Positions 4,945-25,138 of a stretch of DNA of 25,254 bases are shown here, piece after piece. The notes under the pieces are model-generated. The model was not told the origin of the DNA, ran no database searches, and worked only from the letters and a program-made list of their open reading frames with translations. Numbering within the stretch: position 1 is the stretch's first letter; every line of letters starts with the position of its first letter. Source of the DNA: a virus; IMG/VR virus record IMGVR_UViG_3300028844_004412, positions 1 to 25,254 of that record. One strand, given 5' to 3'. The position numbers were made by a program, and so were the translations under genes.

Positions 4945-7900
4945 CTATTCGATGTCAAGTTTCGAATCTCCCGGTTCTTTTGTTACAATTCTTGTTGGTG
5001 AAGTCAATGTTACTTCAACAGCATCCAACCCATCTTGAGTTGTAAATTTTGTATTCTTTACTCCTTCATAAAATAATCTTCTCATAGCAGTAGAACTATC
5101 AGCAGGTACATTGATTTCTGCTGGTTCATATGAAAAACTTGACGGACTTTCTATAGATGCACTATATTCACTACTATAAAATAATTTAATTCTACCCTTT
5201 AAAGGATTAAGTCTTGAACCTGTGACATTAGGCTGTAAAGGTTGTTGGTCTTTAAACGAATCACCAAATGTTACAGATGCCGATGCATAAATGTCACCCG
5301 GCTGTCCTTTTCTTTCAAGTATACTATGTTCAAAGTTTTCTAATCTACTTTGTGAAAGTACTCCTTCATAAAGTTTATTTTCTCCTTGAATACGTACTGC
5401 ACTCGCACTCGCATCATTAGTATAAAATTGTATTGATTGATTTATTTCATCAAACGATGTATCTGTTGAAGGTGAATACGGCTGACCATAAACTTTGTAT
5501 TCTGCTATGCCAGGAGCATAGTATGATTCACTAATCGGTAATAGAGTTTCATAGTATGTGTTTTCAAAGAAAGGTTGTTTACCAACTACTTCTCTCGCTC
5601 TTTCAAGTAAATTAGGTTCTACTAAAATACCAAATCTTGCATTAGCTCTCGCAGGTGTTAATTTTTTAAGTTGCGGAAAGATACTTTGGTCATATGTTTT
5701 TAACAATTTTAAATATTGAAAGAAACTAAATGGTGCATTATACTTTTGCCAATATTTATCTTGAGCCGCATCAAGTCCACGATAAGTTTCTGAATATCTA
5801 TCACGCGGGTCACCGAGAAAATTACCAAAATCTATGTTAGCTAATGATTCTATTATATCCTGATTTATAGCATCTGATGGTGAAAAATATATTCCAACTT
5901 TATTACCATCAGTTGGAGCAAAATCATATCTTCCCCTTCCAATCGGTTTTTCAGATTGTAATTCAGTATACATACCATCACTACCACTAATATACTGAAA
6001 CTCAGGTCTAACAACATTTGCTTCTATTCTAATTTTATTAGTGCTTGGTTTAGATGGCCCTAAGTTTGGTACTAAAGATTTTGTTCTATCTACTACAGAT
6101 TCAAAAGTATTTGATGTAAATCCTACCGCAGTAGCATTTTGAGTTTCTGTTGTCTTAGCAGATACATCTCTAATAACAGGGTCTGATTGTAAATTTTTAT
6201 CATCATCAAAAGAATATCGAGAAACAATGTGTTCATACGATGAAGAAACAGAATTACCATCATATGCTTTTGGGTTACCAACGTGATTATCAAATGAGCC
6301 TGTGTTTAAAGTTTCTGTCCAAACACGAACTTCCATCAATGAACCTGAATATCGTTGTATTGGTAATTTATTAAAATCAACAGAACCTGTTTCCGGACCT
6401 GTTAAAACTGAAGCACCGCCTATATTAAATGTTCCAAAACTATCCCAAGATGAATTGTAAGTTTTACCAGCCGCAGTAGCACCATTAATAGTTAATGTAT
6501 TAGAAGAAACATATTGAAATCTGTCGATACCCGCATCATATTTCTTTATAACTAAATTATAATCTACACTATTTTGTATAGACGCACTTTGTGGTGTTCT
6601 ACGAATCATAGCACTATAAAATTCATCATCGTATATTGGCATTAATGAAGAAGATGTAGCTTTCCATCCATCTGAACCTGATAAGTAAAATAATAAACTA
6701 CCAATATTATCAGCATTGTTATTATCTTTCATTACTATACCCATAGTATTTTTAGCACTACTTACTTTATTCCATATAATTTGATTTTGACTATGCGGTG
6801 CTTTAAATCTCCATTCTACCGTATCAGGAAATTGTGCTGCATCACCTGCTACAGAAGCAGATGCTTCTTGCCAAGTAAAATGTACTCGCTGACCTCCTCT
6901 AAATCCAAGTGCTTTTGTAAATTTTCTGTCGATAGCAAAATTAACAGAACTTGGTGTATCAGGTCCACCATATTCTTTTACTCTTAATATTGAACTCGGT
7001 ATACCATAACAATTAATTAATCCTTTTAATGCTCTTACGGTCCCTTTATTCTTTAAGAAGTACGGCATATTTGAAACTATACGTGACCATATTTCTCTTG
7101 AGATATCTTGTTCAGTTCTTTCTATTTCTTCAAATCCACCCGCAGAACCACTTGAACGCTGGCCTAAAGCAAAATTAGGTAAATCAACTAAATCTTTACC
7201 ATCTGATAATCCCCATCCAAGACTTTTAGCTACAGAATAATATAATTGTTTTGAAAGTCCTTCAGATATATTTTCTCTTCTATCATTTATCATACCTGTT
7301 TGTTTAATATACAACCAAATTTTATCAAACATTTGACCCATCATTTTTATAAAATCCAAGTATGCTTGATTTTCTTGTGTGTTGACAAACTGAGGCATAT
7401 TATTTATAAGATAGTTTCCATTTCTACTATCGTATTCAGAAGAACTAACCATTTGTAAATTAAACCAAGATGTAGCTTCTGAAGATGTAGTATGAGCAAG
7501 AACGTAAGGACTATTCATTGTACCCGCACCACTTAACTTTGGCCAAGCATTGTCGTGAAATGTACCCATCGATGATGAATAATAAGAACTTGATTGTTCA
7601 AACATATATTTTTCAAAACTATCAAAACCATTCTTTACGTTTCTAATTCTTTGATGCCATATATCTGAATCTTGTTTTTCTGTTCCGTAGTTCGCCTGTG
7701 TTATACCTGCACTACTTGCTGAACTTTGTGTATAACTTTCTATTAATTCTAATTTATATTTAAAATTTCTAATTCTTTTTTCAGCTGATGAAAAATGTGT
7801 AAACTCTCTAAAGCCTTTATCGTGCGGTATATTTAATTCTGTTTCTTCTAAAGAACCTGATAAAATAATATTTTGTAATTTCTCTTTTATATCTACATTA

Positions 7901-10900
7901 GATGATAATAAAGTTTCTTCTGTGTGCATCGAAGTAGGTCTCGCTCTTAATGGACTTTCTGAATCTTCAAGCTTCGGACTTAATAAAACGGTACCTTTTA
8001 TATCTTGAGGAACATAATCAATAATATCTATAGAATCTTCATATGGTAACGCCATTTCTTTCACAATACTTACTGAATCAAATTTAGAAACTACATTTCC
8101 TAATGGAGTATACAATTTATAATCTACAGCGTGTGGATAATCAGGTGTAGATTTTTTATCAATTCTAAAATTAGTAGTTAGATATTTTTCTCCACGAACT
8201 TCAATGTAAGTTCTAAGTTCTTCATTATCATTTACACGATAACGTATTTCAAAATTTTTAAACGGTTTAGTTACATCTGCAGGTTGTCCACCTCGTGTTC
8301 TATTTTCTCTTCCTGTATTTGAAGGTACTTGTAACGCACCCAACTCTTCACCTACTTCATCAAAACTCCTATCAAGTTTAATTAAGTCATTACCTTCGAT
8401 TTTCTTTATCGAACCTATGTAGTCTGCATAAATATTTTGATTTGTAGTCTCTCCGGGTTTTTGAAATCTTAAATCAAAATCATCTACCCAAACAATTCCT
8501 TGTGTCGAATTACCATCAGCACCACCAATTCTATGACCTTCTACTATTAATTGCATAGGTTCGTTTGTTAACATATCTTCAGGTATCGGAGCGGTTCCTT
8601 CCATCATCTCCCAATCATTTACTATAGAATTTGCTTGACCATTTAATTCTATAGTCTTATATTCTATAGCGGCGGGTGTATCACCTTGATATTCCCAAAC
8701 TGCATCAGGACCATTCCATTTCCAAAAACCACTTGGAGACATAGTACCATTTTTTAACGGGTCATTACTAACTGAGAAATCACAATTACCACCATTGATA
8801 TTTGGTATGTTTAAACTTTTTCTTAAAGAATAACTTGGTGCATTTAATTTACTTATTAATGTAGATTTTCTTTGTTCTAAGAAAGTTCTACCTTGTAAAA
8901 TATTTGGTTGTCTTTCTTGAGCATTTTCTGCTACTACTTTGACAATTCCACCAAATGGTATGATACCACCTACTTCAGCAGTTTCTATTAAATTTTTCAA
9001 GTTAGTAACAGGATTGTTACCAGCTTCTTCACCTTCAGATATTTCACCATAATTGTTTGCAAAAGGATTAGCACATCCTCTATTTACATATAAATCTTTT
9101 TCACCAACACCCGCATAAACATCTGATATAGGTCTCGGATAACCTGGTAGATATTGTGCTGTAGCACTTAACTCTGTAGCATACACTTGGTCGCCTGATA
9201 TACCAACATATTTTTCACTTGAATCATCACCAAATATAGCTTGAAAAGAACCAAGACCTGTACCAATCCAACTTTCAAAATAATCATCGTTTTTATAAGG
9301 GTCTATAATACGAGCACCACTCGCAGTTCTTGCTCTCGCTGGTTGGCCCGTATCACCTAAGAACCAAAATCTCGGGTCATTTTTATTATCAACATCTTCA
9401 AATACTGCAAATCTTAATTCGTCTAAAGTGCCTAAATCATTTTCACCAGGCTCGACTTCGTTAGAACCAGGACCTTTGCTATAAAATTGACATCCTACTA
9501 TTTTTCCTGGGTTCGCATCACCATCTACACTATATTCTATAATTATACCTTGTGCTTGGTCTTCAGTAGCATTTGCTTCGTTTTCTACAAAATCTCTGTA
9601 ATCTGTAGAAAACTCAACTAACATTATCAAACCTTTTCTTTTATTTGAGTGACCACTTTTGTATCTATGGTATTCTGATATATCTTTAATTCTTCCAAAC
9701 TTTGTCATCAATGTTAATAAGCCAGGACCATTTTCTGCTACAGCCTCACCAATAAAACCATTTGATGTTTTCTTTACTGAAACAGCACTTTCTCCTAATG
9801 TAAAATCATTACTCTGTTTTGTTTTACCAAATAGTGTTGATAATCCAAATCTGTAATTTACAGCATTTTCAGCACCACCAAAACGTGATTGCCAAATATG
9901 ATAATCACCTAAAGTGTCATCATACTTTAGAAAGAAAGTAGCGTGGTCTCCTGAAAACGAATTCCAAGGTGCAACGTGACCAAAATATTCTTTGTGTCTA
10001 CATTTAAATACTACATCAAAATCTCGTGTTGATGGTAAAATAGATTGTTCAAATACACAACTACCATCATCTTCTTGTGCATAACTTTGATAATTTAAAG
10101 CAGAAGCGTCTGTACAACCAGGTATTACAGCAGGTATCTCAGGTAACCAAGTAGTTCCTTTCCATATCCAAGTACGATTTGTACCATCAGTTCCTTCTGT
10201 TTGAATCTGAGCACCTACTTTTCTTATACCAAGAACTCCTTGAGACGCACCATCAGCAGTATTATAATTAGAATAGTTTGGTTCCCATACATACAATCCA
10301 TTTTGTATAGAAGAAACAAACCATTGTTTTCCGGATGATAATAAACCTTCCCCTTGATTGCCTTGTAATTCATCTGAAGGTCTCTGTTCAGTTGGTTCCG
10401 CTAAATATCCTGCAGGTAGTGTGTCAGGAGTTTCTCCTATGTCTTGACCAGGTATATGAAATCCTGCGGGTGGTTCTGTTGGTCTTGGTTCACCAACACC
10501 GAATCCCGCACCATACTTAATACTAATATTAGCACCTTTATTTGTGTCTGATGCTTTTTGAAAATAAGTTATATAAAATAAATCAGCACCTGGTGTTACT
10601 CCATAATTTGAAATAGCAGGAAGACCTGATGAAATTACTAATGGTCTATGTACACCTTGTTCACCGGGCCATTGTGTATCATTTCTGTAAATAGCATTTC
10701 TATCAAGAAACTTTATACATTGACCTCCATTACGACCTTCACCCTTTACCCACTTTGCGTGATATCCTATAGGACCTGTTCCGTAAAATCCTTGTTGAGG
10801 ATTGTTATAAGCTAATATACCATCAGACCATGCTTCTACTTTTATTGCATCAGTATGTAATTCTATGTCTTGTACGCCTATAGGTTTTTGTGGATTTAAA

Positions 10901-18400: not shown

Positions 18401-19126
18401 TTATGTGAATACAGAACCTGTAACGTTCTGTTTAAATGAGATACCTTTGTCTCTGAAGTCATTAATTAACGCATTTTGTTTACGTTTCATAGCATTTATA
18501 ACTCTTGTTATGTGTTGAGTATTAGAACCACTCATCTCACGAATTAAGATATATAGTGCTTTCTTATTGAAGTTTTCAATACTCGCATTATTTTTCATTA
18601 AATATAAGATAGCATCTACTACTGCTAAATCTTTTTTCTTTTTGAAAATGCGCATAAAGTTGTCTTCCCAATACTGATACATTTGATTAAACACTTCAAA
18701 TTTAAAATCAGTAACATCAACCATATTCTTTTCATCAGTTGTCTTTCTATTAAAATCCATAACATCAAGTTGGTCGTGTATTTTACCCATCTTATAATTC
18801 TTGTTGTTATTTAAAATTAAATAGTTTTTAGCAACTACTGAAAAGTAACTAAAGGCTTTACCTTTACCTTGTACATACTTGTGCATATTAATAACCATAT
18901 TAGCAACTACTTCATTTATTACTTCTTCAGTAGGATTGTCGAAGTAATAAAACTTATAAGTATGTATTAAGTTTTCTGCAATCTTCCTAATAGGTGCATA
19001 GATTTTCTCTGTAAAAAGTTTATCTCTTTCAGGGTCACCTGGCTCCATCGAGTTATATTGTACTATCGCATCTTCGGTTACTTGACCAAAATACATTTTA
19101 CTTTTTTTTCTACGCTTCTTCGGCAT
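18401..19126 (-). CDS. 55: Late-transcription sigma factor gp55
   Basis: A 241-aa homologue of T4 gp55 (185 aa in T4), the sigma-70-family subunit that directs host RNA polymerase to phage late promoters. The conserved core is visible: KIYAPIRKIAENLIHTYKFY, INEVVANMVINMHKYVQGKG, KAFSYFSVVAKNYLILNNN. The N-terminus is very basic (MPKKRRKKSK). The C-terminal part (about 160-241) is helical and basic. It is preceded by AGGAGT and overlaps the upstream 87-aa gene by 17 bases. It sits between the nucleotide-modification operon and the tail genes it would be expected to switch on. Confidence 0.85.
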   Translation of the reverse strand: MPKKRRKKSKMYFGQVTEDAIVQYNSMEPGDPERDKLFTEKIYAPIRKIAENLIHTYKFYYFDNPTEEVINEVVANMVINMHKYVQGKGKAFSYFSVVAKNYLILNNNKNYKMGKIHDQLDVMDFNRKTTDEKNMVDVTDFKFEVFNQMYQYWEDNFMRIFKKKKDLAVVDAILYLMKNNASIENFNKKALYILIREMSGSNTQHITRVINAMKRKQNALINDFRDKGISFKQNVTGSVFT

Positions 19127-19373
19127 TTTCTACTCCTGTGAATTTATCTAATTTGTTAATTGTTTCTTTTAATCTTCTGAAAGTATCTCCGACTTCATCA
19201 TCCTTTTCAAACCATTCTTTTTCATCAATAACTTTAATTTCTGTTTGTACTTGATTTAAATCTGTTGTCATTTCTTCAAACCAAGTTTCTAAAGTTTCTT
19301 GACGCTTAAGTTGAATAAGATTTGCAGTCATACTTGTAACTAATAGTAATCCTAACATTCCTTCAATAATCAT
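19110..19373 (-). CDS. Small membrane-anchored coiled-coil protein
   Basis: An 87-aa protein with an N-terminal hydrophobic helix (residues about 1-19, MIIEGMLGLLLVTSMTANL), then a charged helical region with LETWFEEMTTDLNQVQTEI and a conserved-looking FEKDDEVGDTFRRLKETI. Small proteins with this layout occur in other marine T4-like phages. Their function is unknown to me. The start overlaps the HD-domain gene by 4 bases (ATGA) with a GGAGAT ribosome binding site, and its end overlaps gp55. It probably sits in the host inner membrane with a cytoplasmic coiled coil. Confidence 0.6.
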   Translation of the reverse strand: MIIEGMLGLLLVTSMTANLIQLKRQETLETWFEEMTTDLNQVQTEIKVIDEKEWFEKDDEVGDTFRRLKETINKLDKFTGVENAEEA

Positions 19374-20179
19374 TTTTTATCTCCAAATAAGTCATCAAAT
19401 AATTGATTCTTGTAATCTTTATCTACCCTAGGTTTTTTTTCAGATTTCGGTTGACTTTGTGGTTTATCCGTGATAGTGACCTCCTCAACCTCATCTTTCT
19501 CAATACCTAAAATATCAGCATAAGGTATGTTAGCATCTTCACCGAACATATAACGTTCCATCTCAAAACGAGTAGCAACCATATCTGCTTGATGAACTAA
19601 CTGAGCAATATTTGATTTTATCTTTTTAGATTCACCAAAACCCATTAGATAAGCTTTGTTAGCTTCTTCATACATACCATCAGCAAGTCTTAATCCTAAA
19701 TATTCTTGTTCAGAATATGTAACACCGAATTGACTTAGAGTATAAACTGCTCTATCAGTAACGGTCATATTATGTAAGTTAGGGTTGATTTCATACATTT
19801 TACCTTGATTGATTCTATGCCATTCAGAAGGATTAGGTCTGTAGTACTCTTCATCGAGGCTACCAAGTTTACCTAAGTCGTGGTGCATCGTACAGAATAT
19901 TACATCAGCTAAATCATATGATAATTTAAAGCCAAAGTCTTCATAAAGTTTAAATAACTTTTTACCTGCTTCTGTTATATTCATAACGTGGTCAATATAA
20001 CCTCCGGGCCACGAGTTATGAAAGTGGTCTGTAGATGAAGCGGGAGCTAACATCATACGTTCTTCAAAATGGTCATACATTTTATTTAACGCTTTAGCAC
20101 GTTCTTCCGTGTTGAAAGATTCAACATGGTCACGAATGTACTGCATACGTTCTTGTAAGTCTTCTACTTTTAGTTTCAT
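19370..20179 (-). CDS. HD-domain metal-dependent phosphohydrolase
   Basis: A 269-aa protein with the HD-superfamily metal-binding pattern: GGYIDHV (H64), TMHHDLGK (H100, D101) and LVHQAD (H196, D199). HD enzymes hydrolyse phosphate esters of nucleotides or nucleic acids. The substrate here cannot be read. The last 50 residues are a charged, lysine-rich tail (SQPKSEKKPR). It is 9 bases downstream of the TGT/DpdA-like gene and shares the operon, so a role in nucleotide supply for that pathway, such as removing competing dNTPs, is possible. HD proteins are also common in marine T4-like phages without such a pathway. Confidence 0.75.
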   Translation of the reverse strand: MKLKVEDLQERMQYIRDHVESFNTEERAKALNKMYDHFEERMMLAPASSTDHFHNSWPGGYIDHVMNITEAGKKLFKLYEDFGFKLSYDLADVIFCTMHHDLGKLGSLDEEYYRPNPSEWHRINQGKMYEINPNLHNMTVTDRAVYTLSQFGVTYSEQEYLGLRLADGMYEEANKAYLMGFGESKKIKSNIAQLVHQADMVATRFEMERYMFGEDANIPYADILGIEKDEVEEVTITDKPQSQPKSEKKPRVDKDYKNQLFDDLFGDKK

Positions 20180-20188
20180 TTTATTTCC

Positions 20189-21403
20189 TTATCCAAAAAA
20201 GTTATTTTCTTTAACAACAAGACTCTTCTTGATGTTAGAAAGTTGAACATAGTCTTTTGAGTATTTATCAAATACCTTACGAGGTGTATCTGATTTTACC
20301 ATTTCATCAATAGACCTTAATACTTTAGCTAAATCCTTAGGAATTATTTGTTCTAAGTTATGTCTAATACCATATATCGATTGTTCAATCAATTCGATAG
20401 TATCTAAGAACAAATAAAAATTGTGTAGTCTCATTCTAAACTGACCATCCCAATTCCATTCACAAACATCTCTCATATTAGCCCACTTCTCAATAAATCT
20501 ATCGAAGTCATTTACACCAATTAGATTTTGTGTTTTTAATTCATCTAACATTTGAGGCATCTCAGGAAGATGTTTTTCTCTTGGCATATTAAGTGCTTCG
20601 AATCTTGTATTCTTAAATGAGAATGAAGTGTAATATAATCCAAACACAACTGCTCTATCCGGAGTAGATGAATCAGTAGTGACTACTATATTAGAACCTA
20701 CATCTTCAAGTGATTTTTGTAATTGTAATAACATAAAGAAATCTTGAATACGTGATGTACCTAAAATATGCAGATACTCGTTTGATTTCTTTTCGTGTTC
20801 TCTACCTTCTAATAAAGTACATACACTTGCCATAAATCTAAATATGTCACCCGCAGTACCACCAATAGACCAACCTTGAAAGTCAAAGTCTTTTACAGCA
20901 TTGTACCACTCTTTATAAGTTGTGTCATCTTCACCTTGTATAACATTTAAGAATTTAGTTCTACCTGATTGATTCTCATTAAAGTATTTAAAGTTTTCCA
21001 TTGAGATATCAAAACATTCTCTAAACTTTCCTGTGTATTTTAATCTTGGAGGTATATCAAGATTCATAGCAATATCAGAATTGTTTTCTAACCACTCAAA
21101 CACTTGAGTCTTTAACTCAGGCTTCCACTTGATGGCACCTGATGCTATCTGATAACCACCTGAGTCACCCATAATTAAATTAGTATCACGTTTGAATCCT
21201 AATTCGTTATAGAAATCTTTACGTGTTCTATGTGCACCTGCTGTGATTAAGAAATCAGGATATCTAAATTCTTCAGGAAACTCTTCTGTATAAAATCTAC
21301 AAGTTAGTTCATCTTTAAATTTATGATTTTTTAATAATCCGTGTCCAAACTCACCTGCTGAGAAGGATGGGAAGTATTTGAATTTACCTATCTTTTTGTT
21401 CAT
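20189..21403 (-). CDS. TGT/DpdA-family guanine transglycosylase
   Basis: A 404-aa protein with the active-site landmarks of the tRNA-guanine transglycosylase superfamily: MGDSGGYQ (D80, substrate-binding aspartate), DIAMNLDIPP (110-119), NVIQGE (153-158), GWSIGG (177-182), LHILG (211-215) and TTDSSTPDR (D244, candidate nucleophile). These enzymes exchange guanine for a 7-deazaguanine base. The C-terminal CxCxxC-H zinc site of bacterial TGT is not visible. Divergent family members in phages, called DpdA, act on DNA. The start overlaps the glycosyltransferase stop (TAATG), with GGAGG upstream. Its operon with FolE and QueD-like proteins supports a 7-deazaguanine role. DNA as target is favoured but tRNA is not excluded. 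Confidence 0.8.
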   Translation of the reverse strand: MNKKIGKFKYFPSFSAGEFGHGLLKNHKFKDELTCRFYTEEFPEEFRYPDFLITAGAHRTRKDFYNELGFKRDTNLIMGDSGGYQIASGAIKWKPELKTQVFEWLENNSDIAMNLDIPPRLKYTGKFRECFDISMENFKYFNENQSGRTKFLNVIQGEDDTTYKEWYNAVKDFDFQGWSIGGTAGDIFRFMASVCTLLEGREHEKKSNEYLHILGTSRIQDFFMLLQLQKSLEDVGSNIVVTTDSSTPDRAVVFGLYYTSFSFKNTRFEALNMPREKHLPEMPQMLDELKTQNLIGVNDFDRFIEKWANMRDVCEWNWDGQFRMRLHNFYLFLDTIELIEQSIYGIRHNLEQIIPKDLAKVLRSIDEMVKSDTPRKVFDKYSKDYVQLSNIKKSLVVKENNFFG

Positions 21404-22434
21404 TACGCCTCCGTTATAATTTTTAACATTCTTTGTACTGCTGTAGGACCTTGTTCGTCTTTTAATTTTTCAGCATTTTCTTTTATAGGTTCTACATATT
21501 CATCATAATGTTCAATAGCAAATTGAATCATTTCACATTGTGCATCTACATCAGAATCTAAATGCGGTTCATACTTGAACATATCAAAATACATTTCTTT
21601 ATATGATAATCTATTAGGAACCATTACAACATTACCTAACCATAAACTTTCAAAAGTAGATATGCCACAAGTTTCTTGTAAACCACCTGACCAACTAACT
21701 TTTGATTTAGCTAATAGTTTATAATAATCATCTTTTGTTTCCGTTACATCTGTAGTAGTTATAAATTCTATATCAGATTTTTTCATTTTCTTAGCAACTT
21801 CTAAAAAGATATCGTGTCTTTTTTCAGGAGCAGTCCTGTGTGGAAAGACAACTATATTTTCTTTCTTAGATGTATCGTAATCTTTTAACCAATCGTGTGA
21901 GAAAGGATAACCTGTTACGTGTATTTTTTCGTTCGGAACATTTCGAGTAGATGATATTAATTGTTTATGAAATTCTGTAGAAGAGAATATACCATCAGTT
22001 GCTTCAAACAAAGAACGTTCAAAATTAGCACCCCAATATCCAAGACCTTTTTGTGCTAATAAATCCCACTCATCATAAGTACCGGCGTGCCATATAGCAT
22101 ATATCTTTACATTGATATCTTGACATTGAGACATATAACGTAGTGCTTGTATACCATAATGCCAACCATCATAGAATAAAAATACATCACCATCACTAAC
22201 TTTACCTTCTTCAAATAAATTAGCAATCTCTATAATTTGTTCACTCTTATAAGTTTGTGTTCTGTTAATATCAAGAAATTGTCCTGATTTAATTTCACCA
22301 TCAGACTTACCTGAAATAGTTTCTACTTCAAACTTCTTTCCACCATACTTCTTTACTAAAGTAGGTATCCACTCTTGCCATTGTTTAGTATATCGTTTTT
22401 CGATAGGTTCTAAATCAACTAAATGTAACTTCAT
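21403..22434 (-). CDS. GT-B (GT4-like) glycosyltransferase
   Basis: A 343-aa protein with the Rossmann-type C-terminal half of GT-B glycosyltransferases. VVFPHRTAPEKRHDIFLEVA is the typical start of the donor-binding domain, and GGLQETCGISTFESLWLG holds the E-x7-E motif (E254, E262). The N-terminal half has DGDVFLFYDGWHYG and an IWHAGTYDEWDLL segment. It would move a sugar from an activated donor to an acceptor. Its position between the phosphoribosyltransferase and the TGT/DpdA-like gene, with 4-base and 1-base overlaps, suggests it may glycosylate the product of the pathway, but a surface or tRNA acceptor is also possible. Confidence 0.75.
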   Translation of the reverse strand: MKLHLVDLEPIEKRYTKQWQEWIPTLVKKYGGKKFEVETISGKSDGEIKSGQFLDINRTQTYKSEQIIEIANLFEEGKVSDGDVFLFYDGWHYGIQALRYMSQCQDINVKIYAIWHAGTYDEWDLLAQKGLGYWGANFERSLFEATDGIFSSTEFHKQLISSTRNVPNEKIHVTGYPFSHDWLKDYDTSKKENIVVFPHRTAPEKRHDIFLEVAKKMKKSDIEFITTTDVTETKDDYYKLLAKSKVSWSGGLQETCGISTFESLWLGNVVMVPNRLSYKEMYFDMFKYEPHLDSDVDAQCEMIQFAIEHYDEYVEPIKENAEKLKDEQGPTAVQRMLKIITEA

Positions 22435-22835
22435 TTTGTCTCCTTTAAATAATCTTGTATTTCTTCTGAATTATCTTGTTCCCACGGATAAACAATCCAA
22501 TCATCACCTTTTTCTTCAACCCAAAAAGCAGGTTCTACTACTGATTGTTTATGATAATGGATTGTTGCAGTATGAGCATTTTTATAAACTTCTGCTCTCA
22601 AGTTGTGTAAAGTCTGTCCGGTATCTGCAATATCGTCAACGATTAAAAACTTCTTACCATAATAACCTTGTAATCTATCAATCATAGGTAATCCTAATTT
22701 GTGACTCATCATAACACCTATGATTAAACCACCTCTTGGTATCGCATAGATGCCTTCGTATTGATTTTCAGGAATCATATCACAAAGTTCGTCAACCAAC
22801 TTCTCTAATTCATCCCAACTAATATATTTTTTCAT
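22431..22835 (-). CDS. XGPRT-like purine phosphoribosyltransferase
   Basis: A 134-aa type I phosphoribosyltransferase. The PRPP-binding loop reads FLIVDDIADTGQTL (D67, D68, with A70-DTG), an early loop reads YAIPRGGL (residues 30-37), and the C-terminus has WIVYPWE (113-119), the motif of xanthine-guanine phosphoribosyltransferases. It would join PRPP to a purine base to make a nucleotide. It overlaps the upstream oxygenase and the downstream glycosyltransferase by 4 bases each. In this operon it could recycle guanine released by the transglycosylase, or act on a deazapurine base. Both are inferences. Confidence 0.8.
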   Translation of the reverse strand: MKKYISWDELEKLVDELCDMIPENQYEGIYAIPRGGLIIGVMMSHKLGLPMIDRLQGYYGKKFLIVDDIADTGQTLHNLRAEVYKNAHTATIHYHKQSVVEPAFWVEEKGDDWIVYPWEQDNSEEIQDYLKETK

Positions 22836-23623
22836 ACTCTCTTTTCCTCTATAGGTATTGGTTTGTAATTTACGAGAATAGGCCCAAATGTAGGTTTTTC
22901 TGTTCTCGATACTTTTTTAGGGTGAAACAATGTTTTATCACGATGATTAAATAAAGACATCATAGATGCCATATCTTGAGGATGTGCCATATTAAAGTTT
23001 ACAGCATATCTAACATCATCTGATGTATTTTCATATCGATGCCAACTACTTAATTCATCTGTTTCATCTCTTTTCAATCTTCGGTCGTCATCACAATTCA
23101 TAAATAATACACTACGATTATCTTTCCATTGTACTTGCATTGTTTTATCACCGGACATTAGTGTAGTACCTTGACCTGTTTCTCCTATATAAATTACACC
23201 GGTAAATGATTTGTAACTAACATCTAAATGTCTTCCATATTTTAATCTTGGTGGATATATGTTAAGTTCAAGATAACTAAAAAAATCTTTTCTCTCAGGA
23301 CTTTTATTTTTCTTATACGGATATAGTTTTACAGATTCTCTCCAAATATCATCTATAGGTGTAGAAACTCTACCGGTCGGGAAAAAAACAACGTATGCAC
23401 TAAATCCTGTTAGAAGTAAATCTTCACTATATGAATGTTTTATTTCCTCATATTGTTTTAGTTTACCATCGACAAAATAATCAGGAAATCTTTTCTGTAA
23501 ATCTTTGTATCCTAATTCAAATGATTCTTTTACCCACGCTAAATCATAATCATCAAAGAAATTATCTACAATTCTATGAGGCCATTTAATATCAGGAATA
23601 CTTTTATGTACCACTATATTCAT
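22832..23623 (-). CDS. 2-oxoglutarate/Fe(II)-dependent oxygenase
   Basis: A 263-aa protein with the double-stranded beta-helix residues of 2OG-Fe(II) oxygenases: H132-L-D134 (YGRHLDVS) and H195 (SWHRYEN) for iron, and R205 (DVRYAVNF) for 2-oxoglutarate. Such enzymes hydroxylate or otherwise oxidise a substrate, and are abundant in marine T4-like phages, where most substrates are unknown. The gene overlaps the QueD-like gene by one base and the phosphoribosyltransferase by four. In this context, hydroxylating a modified base to create a sugar attachment site is a reasonable idea, by analogy with other phage hypermodification pathways. Protein targets remain possible. Confidence 0.8.
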   Translation of the reverse strand: MNIVVHKSIPDIKWPHRIVDNFFDDYDLAWVKESFELGYKDLQKRFPDYFVDGKLKQYEEIKHSYSEDLLLTGFSAYVVFFPTGRVSTPIDDIWRESVKLYPYKKNKSPERKDFFSYLELNIYPPRLKYGRHLDVSYKSFTGVIYIGETGQGTTLMSGDKTMQVQWKDNRSVLFMNCDDDRRLKRDETDELSSWHRYENTSDDVRYAVNFNMAHPQDMASMMSLFNHRDKTLFHPKKVSRTEKPTFGPILVNYKPIPIEEKRV

Positions 23624-23967
23624 TAATATACTTCAGCTCCGTTTTCGTTATCTTCATAAACTGCACAATAGCACAATTCAAATTCTTTATAAATTTCAGA
23701 TGCCAACATCTCACAAGATTGAGAACCAAAATCACAACAATCTATTTCAGGATTGTAATAAGTTTTTTCAATATAATCTCTCATCATTCTTTTAAATACA
23801 ATAAATTCTACATCTCTATCATCGTGAAATACTTCTCTACGTGCATCAATGTGAAACATATGTCTATGAGGATGTTCAAGATATTTCATTGTCGGCTCGA
23901 ATTTACTTGCTTCAGGCCAATTATGAACACCTTCTACTTGAAACTTTACTACTATATTTGTTTGCAT
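23623..23967 (-). CDS. QueD-like (PTPS-family) protein lacking the usual catalytic Cys
   Basis: A 114-aa member of the 6-pyruvoyltetrahydropterin synthase / 6-carboxytetrahydropterin synthase family. The zinc histidines are visible: H15 (GVHNWP), and H34 and H36 in HPHRHMFHI. DRDVEFIVFKRMMRDYI, DFGSQSCEM and the final EDNENGAEV match a divergent phage and bacterial branch. In E. coli QueD a cysteine lies 4 residues before the first histidine of the HGH pair. Here that position is L30, so catalysis may differ. It follows FolE directly (TAATG overlap), which makes a deazapurine or pterin pathway likely. Confidence 0.7.
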   Translation of the reverse strand: MQTNIVVKFQVEGVHNWPEASKFEPTMKYLEHPHRHMFHIDARREVFHDDRDVEFIVFKRMMRDYIEKTYYNPEIDCCDFGSQSCEMLASEIYKEFELCYCAVYEDNENGAEVY

Positions 23968-24590
23968 TATTTCATATCCTTTACAAAGTTATAAAATTCT
24001 TGTCGTACTGAATAATCACCATCTCTAAAAGCACCACTTAGTTTAGATGTTTTCATTTCAGAGTGAGGATGTTTAACACCACGTAAACAAGCACATAAAT
24101 GTTTAGCACTTACCATTACAGCAATACCGCCGTGAGTAACTAATACATCATCTAAGTGGTCGTGTATCTGCATTGTAAGATTTTCTTGTACTTGAGGTCT
24201 ACGTGAATAAAACTCAACCGTACGATTTAATTTACTTAAACCAATAATCTTACCCTCAGGCTTAGCAAGATATGCTACGTGAGCAACACCAAAGAAAGGA
24301 AGATGATGATGTGAACACATTGAATGTACTTGAATGTTTCCTTCAAATACCATACCATCGTATTTATCAACATTATCAAATGCTGTAATCTTAGGAGGTG
24401 CATTGAAACAACCTTCTGCTAAATCATTCACCCACGCCTTAGCAACTCTAAGAGGAGTTTCTGAAGCATTAGGGTCTGTTTCCCATTCAAAGCCGAGAGA
24501 AGACATAAATTTACCGTAATGATATGCCGCGTCTTCTATCGTATTTTGTTTTTCTTTTACTGATAAAACTTTGTTTCCGTTTGATTTCAT
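23967..24590 (-). CDS. folE: GTP cyclohydrolase I
   Basis: A 207-aa enzyme that converts GTP to dihydroneopterin triphosphate, the first step of both folate and 7-deazaguanine (preQ0) synthesis. Key features: TPLRVAKAW, the zinc-site segment VHSMCSHHHLPFFG (Cys and His ligands), GLSKLNRTVEFYSRRPQVQE, and KHLCACLRGV with the second zinc cysteine. Length and motifs match complete bacterial FolE-I, so it is probably active. The start has GGAGGT and overlaps the upstream gene by 4 bases (ATGA). A QueD-like gene follows immediately, so GTP is probably directed into the 7-deazaguanine route. Confidence 0.92.
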   Translation of the reverse strand: MKSNGNKVLSVKEKQNTIEDAAYHYGKFMSSLGFEWETDPNASETPLRVAKAWVNDLAEGCFNAPPKITAFDNVDKYDGMVFEGNIQVHSMCSHHHLPFFGVAHVAYLAKPEGKIIGLSKLNRTVEFYSRRPQVQENLTMQIHDHLDDVLVTHGGIAVMVSAKHLCACLRGVKHPHSEMKTSKLSGAFRDGDYSVRQEFYNFVKDMK

Positions 24591-25138
24591 TTAGACCTCC
24601 ATTTACCGTTACCGAGATATTTTAAATAAGTGTATCTACCTTTAAATGTGTTGTCGTTTAAAACTATTTTACACAATGTAGTAGTTCCGCCATCTTGGTA
24701 CATTTCTTTAATATATTTTTTATTTTTTATAATTGTATTTACAATAAAGTTTTGCATCTTAGGCAAATCATAATATATCATATCATAAGTTTTTTTATTG
24801 AAGTGATACCAACGATGTGCATCTTCTGCTTTTAAAAAGTCTCCTTCTTTACCGCTTTTATATAATTCAACATAACAACCCCAATTATATAGATTAGCTT
24901 TAAGTTGTGTATGTAATTCAAAATCTGAATTTAAAATTATAGTATGGTCAATTCCTCGTTTTTCCATTATCTTACCATCAATAGTATTGAAATCCCAATT
25001 AATAATTTTCTTACTTTTGTCAGAATAATAAGTTTCTAACATTGTATCAAAAACACTTTCTGCTTTCTGACCTTTAGCAAGGTTACGTGTCCATTCAGAT
25101 TTATACACCCTTACTCCATTGTTTCCATCCATACACAT
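24587..25138 (-). CDS. Uncharacterised protein, possible PD-(D/E)XK nuclease-like fold
   Basis: A 183-aa protein with no family I can name. It has the spacing of a PD-(D/E)XK core: an N-terminal helix with GQKAESVFDTML (E27), GIDHTIIL (D64) and HTQLKAN (Q78, K80). This suggests a nuclease or nuclease-derived fold but is weak evidence. The ATG at 25138 has an AGGA 5 bases upstream and overlaps the end of the PnuC-like gene by 38 bases. An alternative GTG start at 25108 has GGAG 5 bases upstream and overlaps by only 8 bases, giving a 173-aa protein. Its end overlaps folE by 4 bases. Confidence 0.45.
   Translation of the reverse strand: MCMDGNNGVRVYKSEWTRNLAKGQKAESVFDTMLETYYSDKSKKIINWDFNTIDGKIMEKRGIDHTIILNSDFELHTQLKANLYNWGCYVELYKSGKEGDFLKAEDAHRWYHFNKKTYDMIYYDLPKMQNFIVNTIIKNKKYIKEMYQDGGTTTLCKIVLNDNTFKGRYTYLKYLGNGKWRSK

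Follow-up and report, generated by a model that had tools for sequence, protein, structure and literature searches.

The minus strand of a 25,254-base virus record of IMG/VR (IMGVR_UViG_3300028844_004412; this whole stretch is called the window) carries a compact operon at 19370-24590 that encodes FolE, a QueD-like protein, a 2-oxoglutarate-Fe(II) oxygenase-like protein, a phosphoribosyltransferase (PRTase), a glycosyltransferase (GT), an enzyme resembling tRNA-guanine transglycosylases (TGT) and an HD hydrolase-like protein. With moderate confidence, we propose that a glycosylated 7-deazaguanine is made in the phage DNA after replication. FolE together with QueD and QueE, the last two encoded upstream in relatives, would make 7-carboxy-7-deazaguanine (CDG) from GTP, and the QueD-fold protein would take over from QueC and process CDG, a decarboxylation being the most likely reaction. 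Guanines would then be swapped by the TGT-like enzyme in the replicated phage DNA for the processed base, onto which the GT would transfer a sugar taken from a nucleotide sugar. The XGPRT-like PRTase may turn the released guanine into GMP, pulling the exchange forward and refilling GTP, and the oxygenase, found only in the clade of the window, probably carries out a further oxidation, of either the base or the sugar.

Genes for GT, QueD-like and TGT-like proteins were found together in the isolated phages Paride, ACP17, X1 and BUCT-ZZ01. Phosso has the GT and QueD-like genes together and a TGT-like gene elsewhere in its genome, and other records of the PA5oct group gave tblastn matches to all three proteins. 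Several phages that infect different hosts have the gene set, so that it is beyond chance. A QueD-like gene with no GT in the fetched stretch was seen in phiST, MA9V-3, Bakedbeans, Roos, RHph_I1_18 and D479. For a census, the best 80 of at least 581 viral loci with a QueD-like gene were analysed, families being assigned by local profiles. A GT gene was present in 36 of the 39 loci with a TGT-type enzyme and in all 12 loci with a second, putative transglycosylase type, comp22, and in none of the 19 loci with a third putative type, comp9 (48/51 versus 0/19, Fisher p 2.4e-14, excluding the 10 loci in which no transglycosylase was seen and ignoring kinship). In the three TGT-type loci without a GT, the sequence ends 94, 185 and 726 bp past the QueD-like gene, and no locus combines a TGT-type enzyme with another transglycosylase type. 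The GT and QueD-like genes shared a strand in 51/51 loci, and the median gap between them was 236 bp. The same picture was obtained with a repeat set, for which 28 contigs were taken from assemblies of prokaryotes (metagenome bins for the most part): a GT accompanied the TGT type in 10/10, comp22 in 5/5 and comp9 in 0/5 cases (Fisher p 6.4e-5, with the same exclusion and kinship again ignored). The GT is thus tied to the DpdA-like enzyme, as the preliminary description of this DNA had supposed by placing both in one pathway, and because of this recurrent tie glycosylation is a fair prediction. As a testable rule, the type of transglycosylase would tell whether the base is glycosylated.

These counts also bear on another explanation, whereby a bare base (7-deazaguanine or CDG) is inserted into DNA and the GT and oxygenase act elsewhere, on host surface sugars or on another base, and are neighbours by chance packing. 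Many phages encode GTs, in the 19 comp9 loci the QueD-like gene does without one, and the GT of the window can be replaced by a 25%-identical one while the TGT-like protein stays at 93%. Against chance packing, the GT in both sets accompanies two transglycosylase types and never the third, its gene is always on the strand of the QueD-like gene at a median gap of 236 bp, and in the window it overlaps its neighbours. We regard this explanation as rather unlikely.

Some loci showed further features around the module. In an isolate contig of Aurantimonas sp. VKM B-3413 (L141), genes for TGT-type, QueD-like and GT proteins occupy 6047-9424. Their neighbours are typical of bacteria (periplasmic binding protein, GGDEF/EAL), and the module may thus have a bacterial version; a weak match to a queuosine precursor transporter, under the cut-off, lies between the TGT-type and QueD-like genes. 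A family of 176 aa without Pfam match precedes the QueD-like gene in L123 (8370-8894) and 15 other loci, 15 of the 16 having a GT. A second family, of 242 aa and with no Pfam or NCBIfam match, stands beside the TGT-type gene in L123 (5781-6509) and 22 other loci.

The QueD-like protein (114 aa) had no match in Pfam, NCBIfam or PDB sequences. Its structure model (pLDDT 95) superimposed on Escherichia coli QueD (4ntk) with Z 12.4 and 2.1 A over 104 residues, and H15, H34, H36 and S84-C85-E86 were invariant in the alignment. The protein shares with QueD/PTPS the fold, the three histidines and the base-side glutamate, but differs in that the catalytic cysteine is replaced by leucine and an invariant Ser-Cys-Glu is new. 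None of the 80 census proteins has the catalytic-cysteine motif CxxxHxH, and all 80 have Ser-Cys-Glu; the canonical QueD proteins from the same loci carry CxxxHG in 38/39 and CxxxHGH in 15/39 cases. The name 'QueD-like' given earlier therefore describes the fold and the zinc histidines, which are kept, but not the catalytic cysteine, which is gone. Since this cysteine is lost, the protein is probably not a 6-carboxytetrahydropterin (CPH4) synthase but a further enzyme of the pathway; a separate QueD is encoded in relatives.

Four longer relatives allowed us to look upstream of FolE, beyond the right edge of the window, where the preliminary description had suggested reading for queE and queC. 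QueE was encoded there in three of the four (G001, G004 and G009) and QueD in two (G001 and G004); G002 begins inside the operon and G009 inside QueE. The presence of these genes supports the assignment to the 7-deazaguanine pathway. The Pfam model of QueC exceeded its cut-off in 0/31 GT-bearing records searched, many of them fragments and the window itself not among them. They comprise 12 records of a 15-record set with no match over the cut-off and 19 of a 25-record set with two, and the search covered 18 of the 51 GT-bearing census loci. The two records over the cut-off were the control nt-1 (5.7e-54), whose annotated cluster has QueC, and D479, a phage without GT in its fetched stretch. 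Because no QueC scored above the cut-off in these GT-bearing records, the pathway probably ends at CDG and not at preQ0. As it seems to stop there, the enzyme to propose first for what follows, where QueC is missing, is the QueD-fold protein.

The family profile of the TGT-like proteins matched solved tRNA-guanine transglycosylases with E ~1e-5, and D80 (in DSGG), D116 and D244 were invariant in 11/11 aligned members. The profile match and the kept catalytic aspartates support the view, already taken in the preliminary description, that the window enzyme is a DpdA-like member of the DpdA/TGT superfamily. A tree of 51 TGT-like proteins, in which the tool flagged long branches, resolved three main sets and one row (Illi-2) apart. 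The first set unites DpdA2 of nt-1 with the enzymes of ACP17, X1 and BUCT-ZZ01 (13 rows, support 100/100), the second includes the window enzyme (10 rows) and the third the enzymes of Paride and Phosso (27 rows). Among the other transglycosylase types, comp9 was related to the TGT family by profile comparison (E 4.9e-5 and 2.9e-5), although its PDB search listed no TGT. The gene of phiST could be aligned with comp9 and has the invariant residues of this family. For comp22, the motifs DSGAFT, LDVI, AGG, HGLG and DSS are co-linear with those of the TGT-like proteins, while the profile comparison was not significant (E 0.21 and 0.086) and its PDB result held no TGT. We consider comp22 a putative transglycosylase family by likeness in motif order only, comp9 being better supported. 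The Pfam TGT model matched neither family in 15 records, 13 of which had been chosen because they show no TGT-type match beside the QueD-like gene and have a GT or other pathway genes. The co-occurrence result needs only that comp9 and comp22 are families.

Instead of DNA, the target might be host tRNA, in which a glycosylated queuosine-like base would retune translation. TGTs are tRNA enzymes, the best solved relatives of the window enzyme are tRNA TGTs, and glycosylated queuosine occurs in animal tRNA. The queuosine mannosyltransferase QTMAN, which acts on tRNA, resembles the proposed GT in using a 7-deazaguanine derivative and differs in its tRNA substrate; its domain QTMAN_N (PF12038) gave no match in 8 phage records, where the controls gave no match either. 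Against tRNA speak the zinc cysteines known from TGTs, which are absent from the invariant columns of the TGT-like alignment, and the position of the Paride TGT-like and GT genes among replication genes (DNA polymerase). Moreover, the related phage family DpdA2 inserts its base into DNA: dPreQ0 is reported in the DNA of phage nt-1 (PMC6884629) and dPreQ1, at 15% of dG, in that of phage 6E35.1a (PMC12028318). By analogy, we favour DNA as the target and consider a tRNA target improbable.

The GT assignment is based on conserved GT4-like/GT-B motifs: R200, E204, K205 and E262 (R-x3-E-K and E-x7-E) were invariant in 9/9 sequences, E254 being Asp in two. In the oxygenase-like protein, H132, D134, H195 and R205 (HxD...H plus Arg) were invariant in 3/3 sequences, from which a model of low confidence (pLDDT 41) was obtained. 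A pattern scan matched 57 stretches; five were relatives, each on a contig that had been placed in the clade of the window before, and a tblastn search against 50,697 phage records found none. The oxygenase occurred in 1/80 census loci (contig of L003) compared with 51/80 for the GT, and of the near relatives, L011 and L044 have a GT and no oxygenase. The preliminary description had suggested that the oxygenase and the GT would allow hydroxylation and glycosylation. That the oxygenase makes the hydroxyl used by the GT is not supported: it is found only in the window clade and the GT is common without it, which makes the oxygenase a clade-specific extra and not the maker of the sugar attachment point. 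The GT needs no oxygenase; therefore the module does not in general hydroxylate first and glycosylate afterwards.

Among the 13 near relatives, the TGT-like protein was 76-95% identical to that of the window. GT identity was 94% in L002, 76% in L011 and about 25% in L003-L006 and L008, where L003-L006 give identical figures and may be near-duplicates. For the oxygenase, identity was 59% in L002, 41% in L003-L006 and 48% in L008 (fragment); it is absent from L011, and the other six loci do not contain the stretch. FolE is followed by a methyltransferase-like gene in G004, G002 and G009 (the L004 copy scoring under the Pfam cut-off) and by an HNH-like gene in G001. From these identities and gene contents we read that the genes for base exchange are constant and those for decoration variable.

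Genes that could accompany the proposed chemistry were found beside some modules. In L110 the GT gene is followed by GalE (294.7 bits, cut-off 262.3) and a nucleotidyltransferase-like gene in successive overlaps, and L099 has the same order, the GT gene overlapping the epimerase gene. An IMPDH-like gene directly follows the GT gene in L103, L104 and L144, and another precedes QueD in G001; the latter encodes 402 aa and scored 339 bits with Pfam but did not reach the IMPDH cut-off of NCBIfam. The PRTase exceeded the Pfam cut-off of 26.3, has kept the loop for phosphoribosyl pyrophosphate (PRPP) and reached 66.4 of 138 bits with the XPRT equivalog model. It was present in 26/80 census loci, counted by the clean first-pass cluster since the second-pass profile also caught FolE. 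Open reading frames (ORFs) of L051 (8156-9004), L052 (6492-7340) and L066 (8209-8985) matched both FolE and this contaminated PRTase profile and are possible fusions. That the PRTase, present in the operon with its PRPP loop kept, makes a 7-deazaguanine nucleotide for insertion by the polymerase, leaving the TGT-like enzyme another role, is very improbable given the many modules without a PRTase, the transglycosylases as regular partners and the kept TGT catalytic aspartates.

Several observations weigh against a glycosylated 7-deazaguanine in DNA. Taken alone, three proteins of the window stay under their Pfam cut-offs, namely the TGT-like enzyme (19.9 bits, cut-off 26.3; 16.6 of 200 bits with the NCBIfam DpdA model), the GT (20.0 bits, cut-off 26.4) and the oxygenase (cut-off 27). 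In the tree of 51 proteins with its flagged long branches, the window enzyme does not fall inside the nt-1 DpdA2 clade, and for this reason DNA targeting is argued by analogy. GT genes also occur where no transglycosylase was seen (3/10 in the census, 3/8 in the repeat set). In the census, no more than 6/22 and 5/16 copies of sugar-nucleotide genes were located 60 bp or less from a module gene, and a search of G004 for the IMPDH-like gene gave no match. Weak QueC matches under the cut-off were obtained in G001, X1 and G038. In G001, the contig of L002, a 564-aa ORF at 21908-23602, about 16 kb from the operon, joins a radical SAM part to a QueC-like part with SGGCDS and CxxCxxC. Because of this fusion and the weak matches in X1 and G038, these three may make an amide or a nitrile instead, and a host QueC could supply preQ0. 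Finally, if the carboxylate is removed, the sugar has no obvious acceptor atom. A doubtful solution, to which we give little weight, would be that the QueD-fold protein strips the CDG carboxylate and the GT C-glycosylates the bare nucleophilic C7, with further oxidation by the oxygenase in the window clade.

The positions of the genes are summarized in Table 1. All seven ORFs of the run described earlier are located on the minus strand and are tightly packed. Neighbouring genes overlap by 1 or 4 nt at every junction between the 183-aa ORF at one end and the TGT-like gene at the other. 'One run of overlapping genes' thus applies from FolE to the TGT-like gene but not to the HD gene, which starts 9 nt past the latter. 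The HD protein had PHROG matches only, one named metal-dependent phosphohydrolase, and its gene was found in 2/80 census loci (L044 and L045), which makes it a gene of the window's lineage rather than part of the module, as had been assumed.

Table 1. Operon genes and upstream neighbour in the window, from right to left
Feature	Position	Strand	Basis or remark
183-aa ORF before FolE	24587..25138	-	function not assigned; module membership unsure; 4-nt overlap with FolE
FolE, GTP cyclohydrolase I	23967..24590	-	PF01227 164.4 bits
QueD-fold protein without catalytic Cys; candidate CDG-processing enzyme	23623..23967	-	model, invariant residues, phrog_17812
2OG-Fe(II) oxygenase-like, found only in window clade	22832..23623	-	PF13640 15.9 bits (under cut-off) and conserved motif
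XGPRT-like phosphoribosyltransferase, proposed guanine salvage	22431..22835	-	PF00156 34.5 bits (over cut-off) and PRPP loop
GT-B (GT4-like) glycosyltransferase	21403..22434	-	motif residues; Pfam 20 bits (under cut-off)
TGT-like (DpdA-like) transglycosylase	20189..21403	-	profile match to solved TGTs and invariant aspartates
HD hydrolase-like protein; lineage gene, outside recurring module	19370..20179	-	phrog_28876, phrog_5889

The 183-aa ORF had no Pfam or PHROG match; homologues occupy the same place in L004 and L006/G004, and in L113 one stands beside the module, near another QueD-like gene. By eye, its GIDH...ELHTQLK stretch resembles a PD-(D/E)XK nuclease core, with no family match. Downstream of the operon, two ORFs are kept in the lineage: 19110-19373, with a weak Rz-like spanin match (PHROG), and 18401-19126, which looks like a late sigma factor by eye and is without family match. 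Baseplate-wedge genes are located to the left of the operon.

In T4-type glucosylation, GT-B enzymes put a sugar on hydroxymethylcytosine after replication. The proposed module is alike in placing a sugar on a modified base by a GT-B enzyme and differs in base, route and GT family; no T4 glucosyltransferase family appeared in the Pfam result for the window proteins. A CDG decarboxylase, DpdL, was reportedly proposed for phages by Cui in NAR in 2023, in connection with dDG and dCDG phages. These are said to share a route past CDG without QueC, and Cellulophaga phage phiST is a further carrier of the QueD-like gene; that description is not known to include a GT. With the DpdA/DpdA2 phages nt-1 and 6E35.1a (PMC6884629 and PMC12028318), the module shares FolE, QueD, QueE and a TGT-like base-exchange enzyme. 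The enzymes of ACP17, X1 and BUCT-ZZ01 belong to the nt-1 DpdA2 clade, whereas that of the window belongs to another; the module adds the QueD-fold protein and the GT, and no QueC scored above the cut-off in the GT-bearing records searched. The gene combination recurs in other phages, and we could not find a description of it in the literature searched. No glycosylated 7-deazaguanine in DNA appeared in the titles and abstract beginnings found; NAR 2023 gkad657 and MMBR 2024 PMC10966956 were not covered, so that absence from print is not shown.

For Pseudomonas phage PA5oct (NC_071039.1), about 375 kbp was estimated by pulsed-field electrophoresis (PMC3936114), compared with 286,783 bp in the record; the gap could be due to terminal redundancy or to a changed mobility of the DNA.

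If our proposal is correct, a sugar-decorated 7-deazaguanine would occur in a wide set of phages, some of them cultured (the Paride/PA5oct group, Phosso and BUCT-ZZ01), and phages that lack QueC would have, in the QueD-fold protein, a candidate for the enzyme that acts on CDG. Should the sugar be C-linked, the modified DNA would not be open to removal of the sugar by ordinary glycosidases. Since host systems such as GrwAB attack 7-deazaguanine DNA (PMC12137116), adding a sugar to the base could serve as counter-defence, and the exchange of GT genes among near relatives would fit an arms race.

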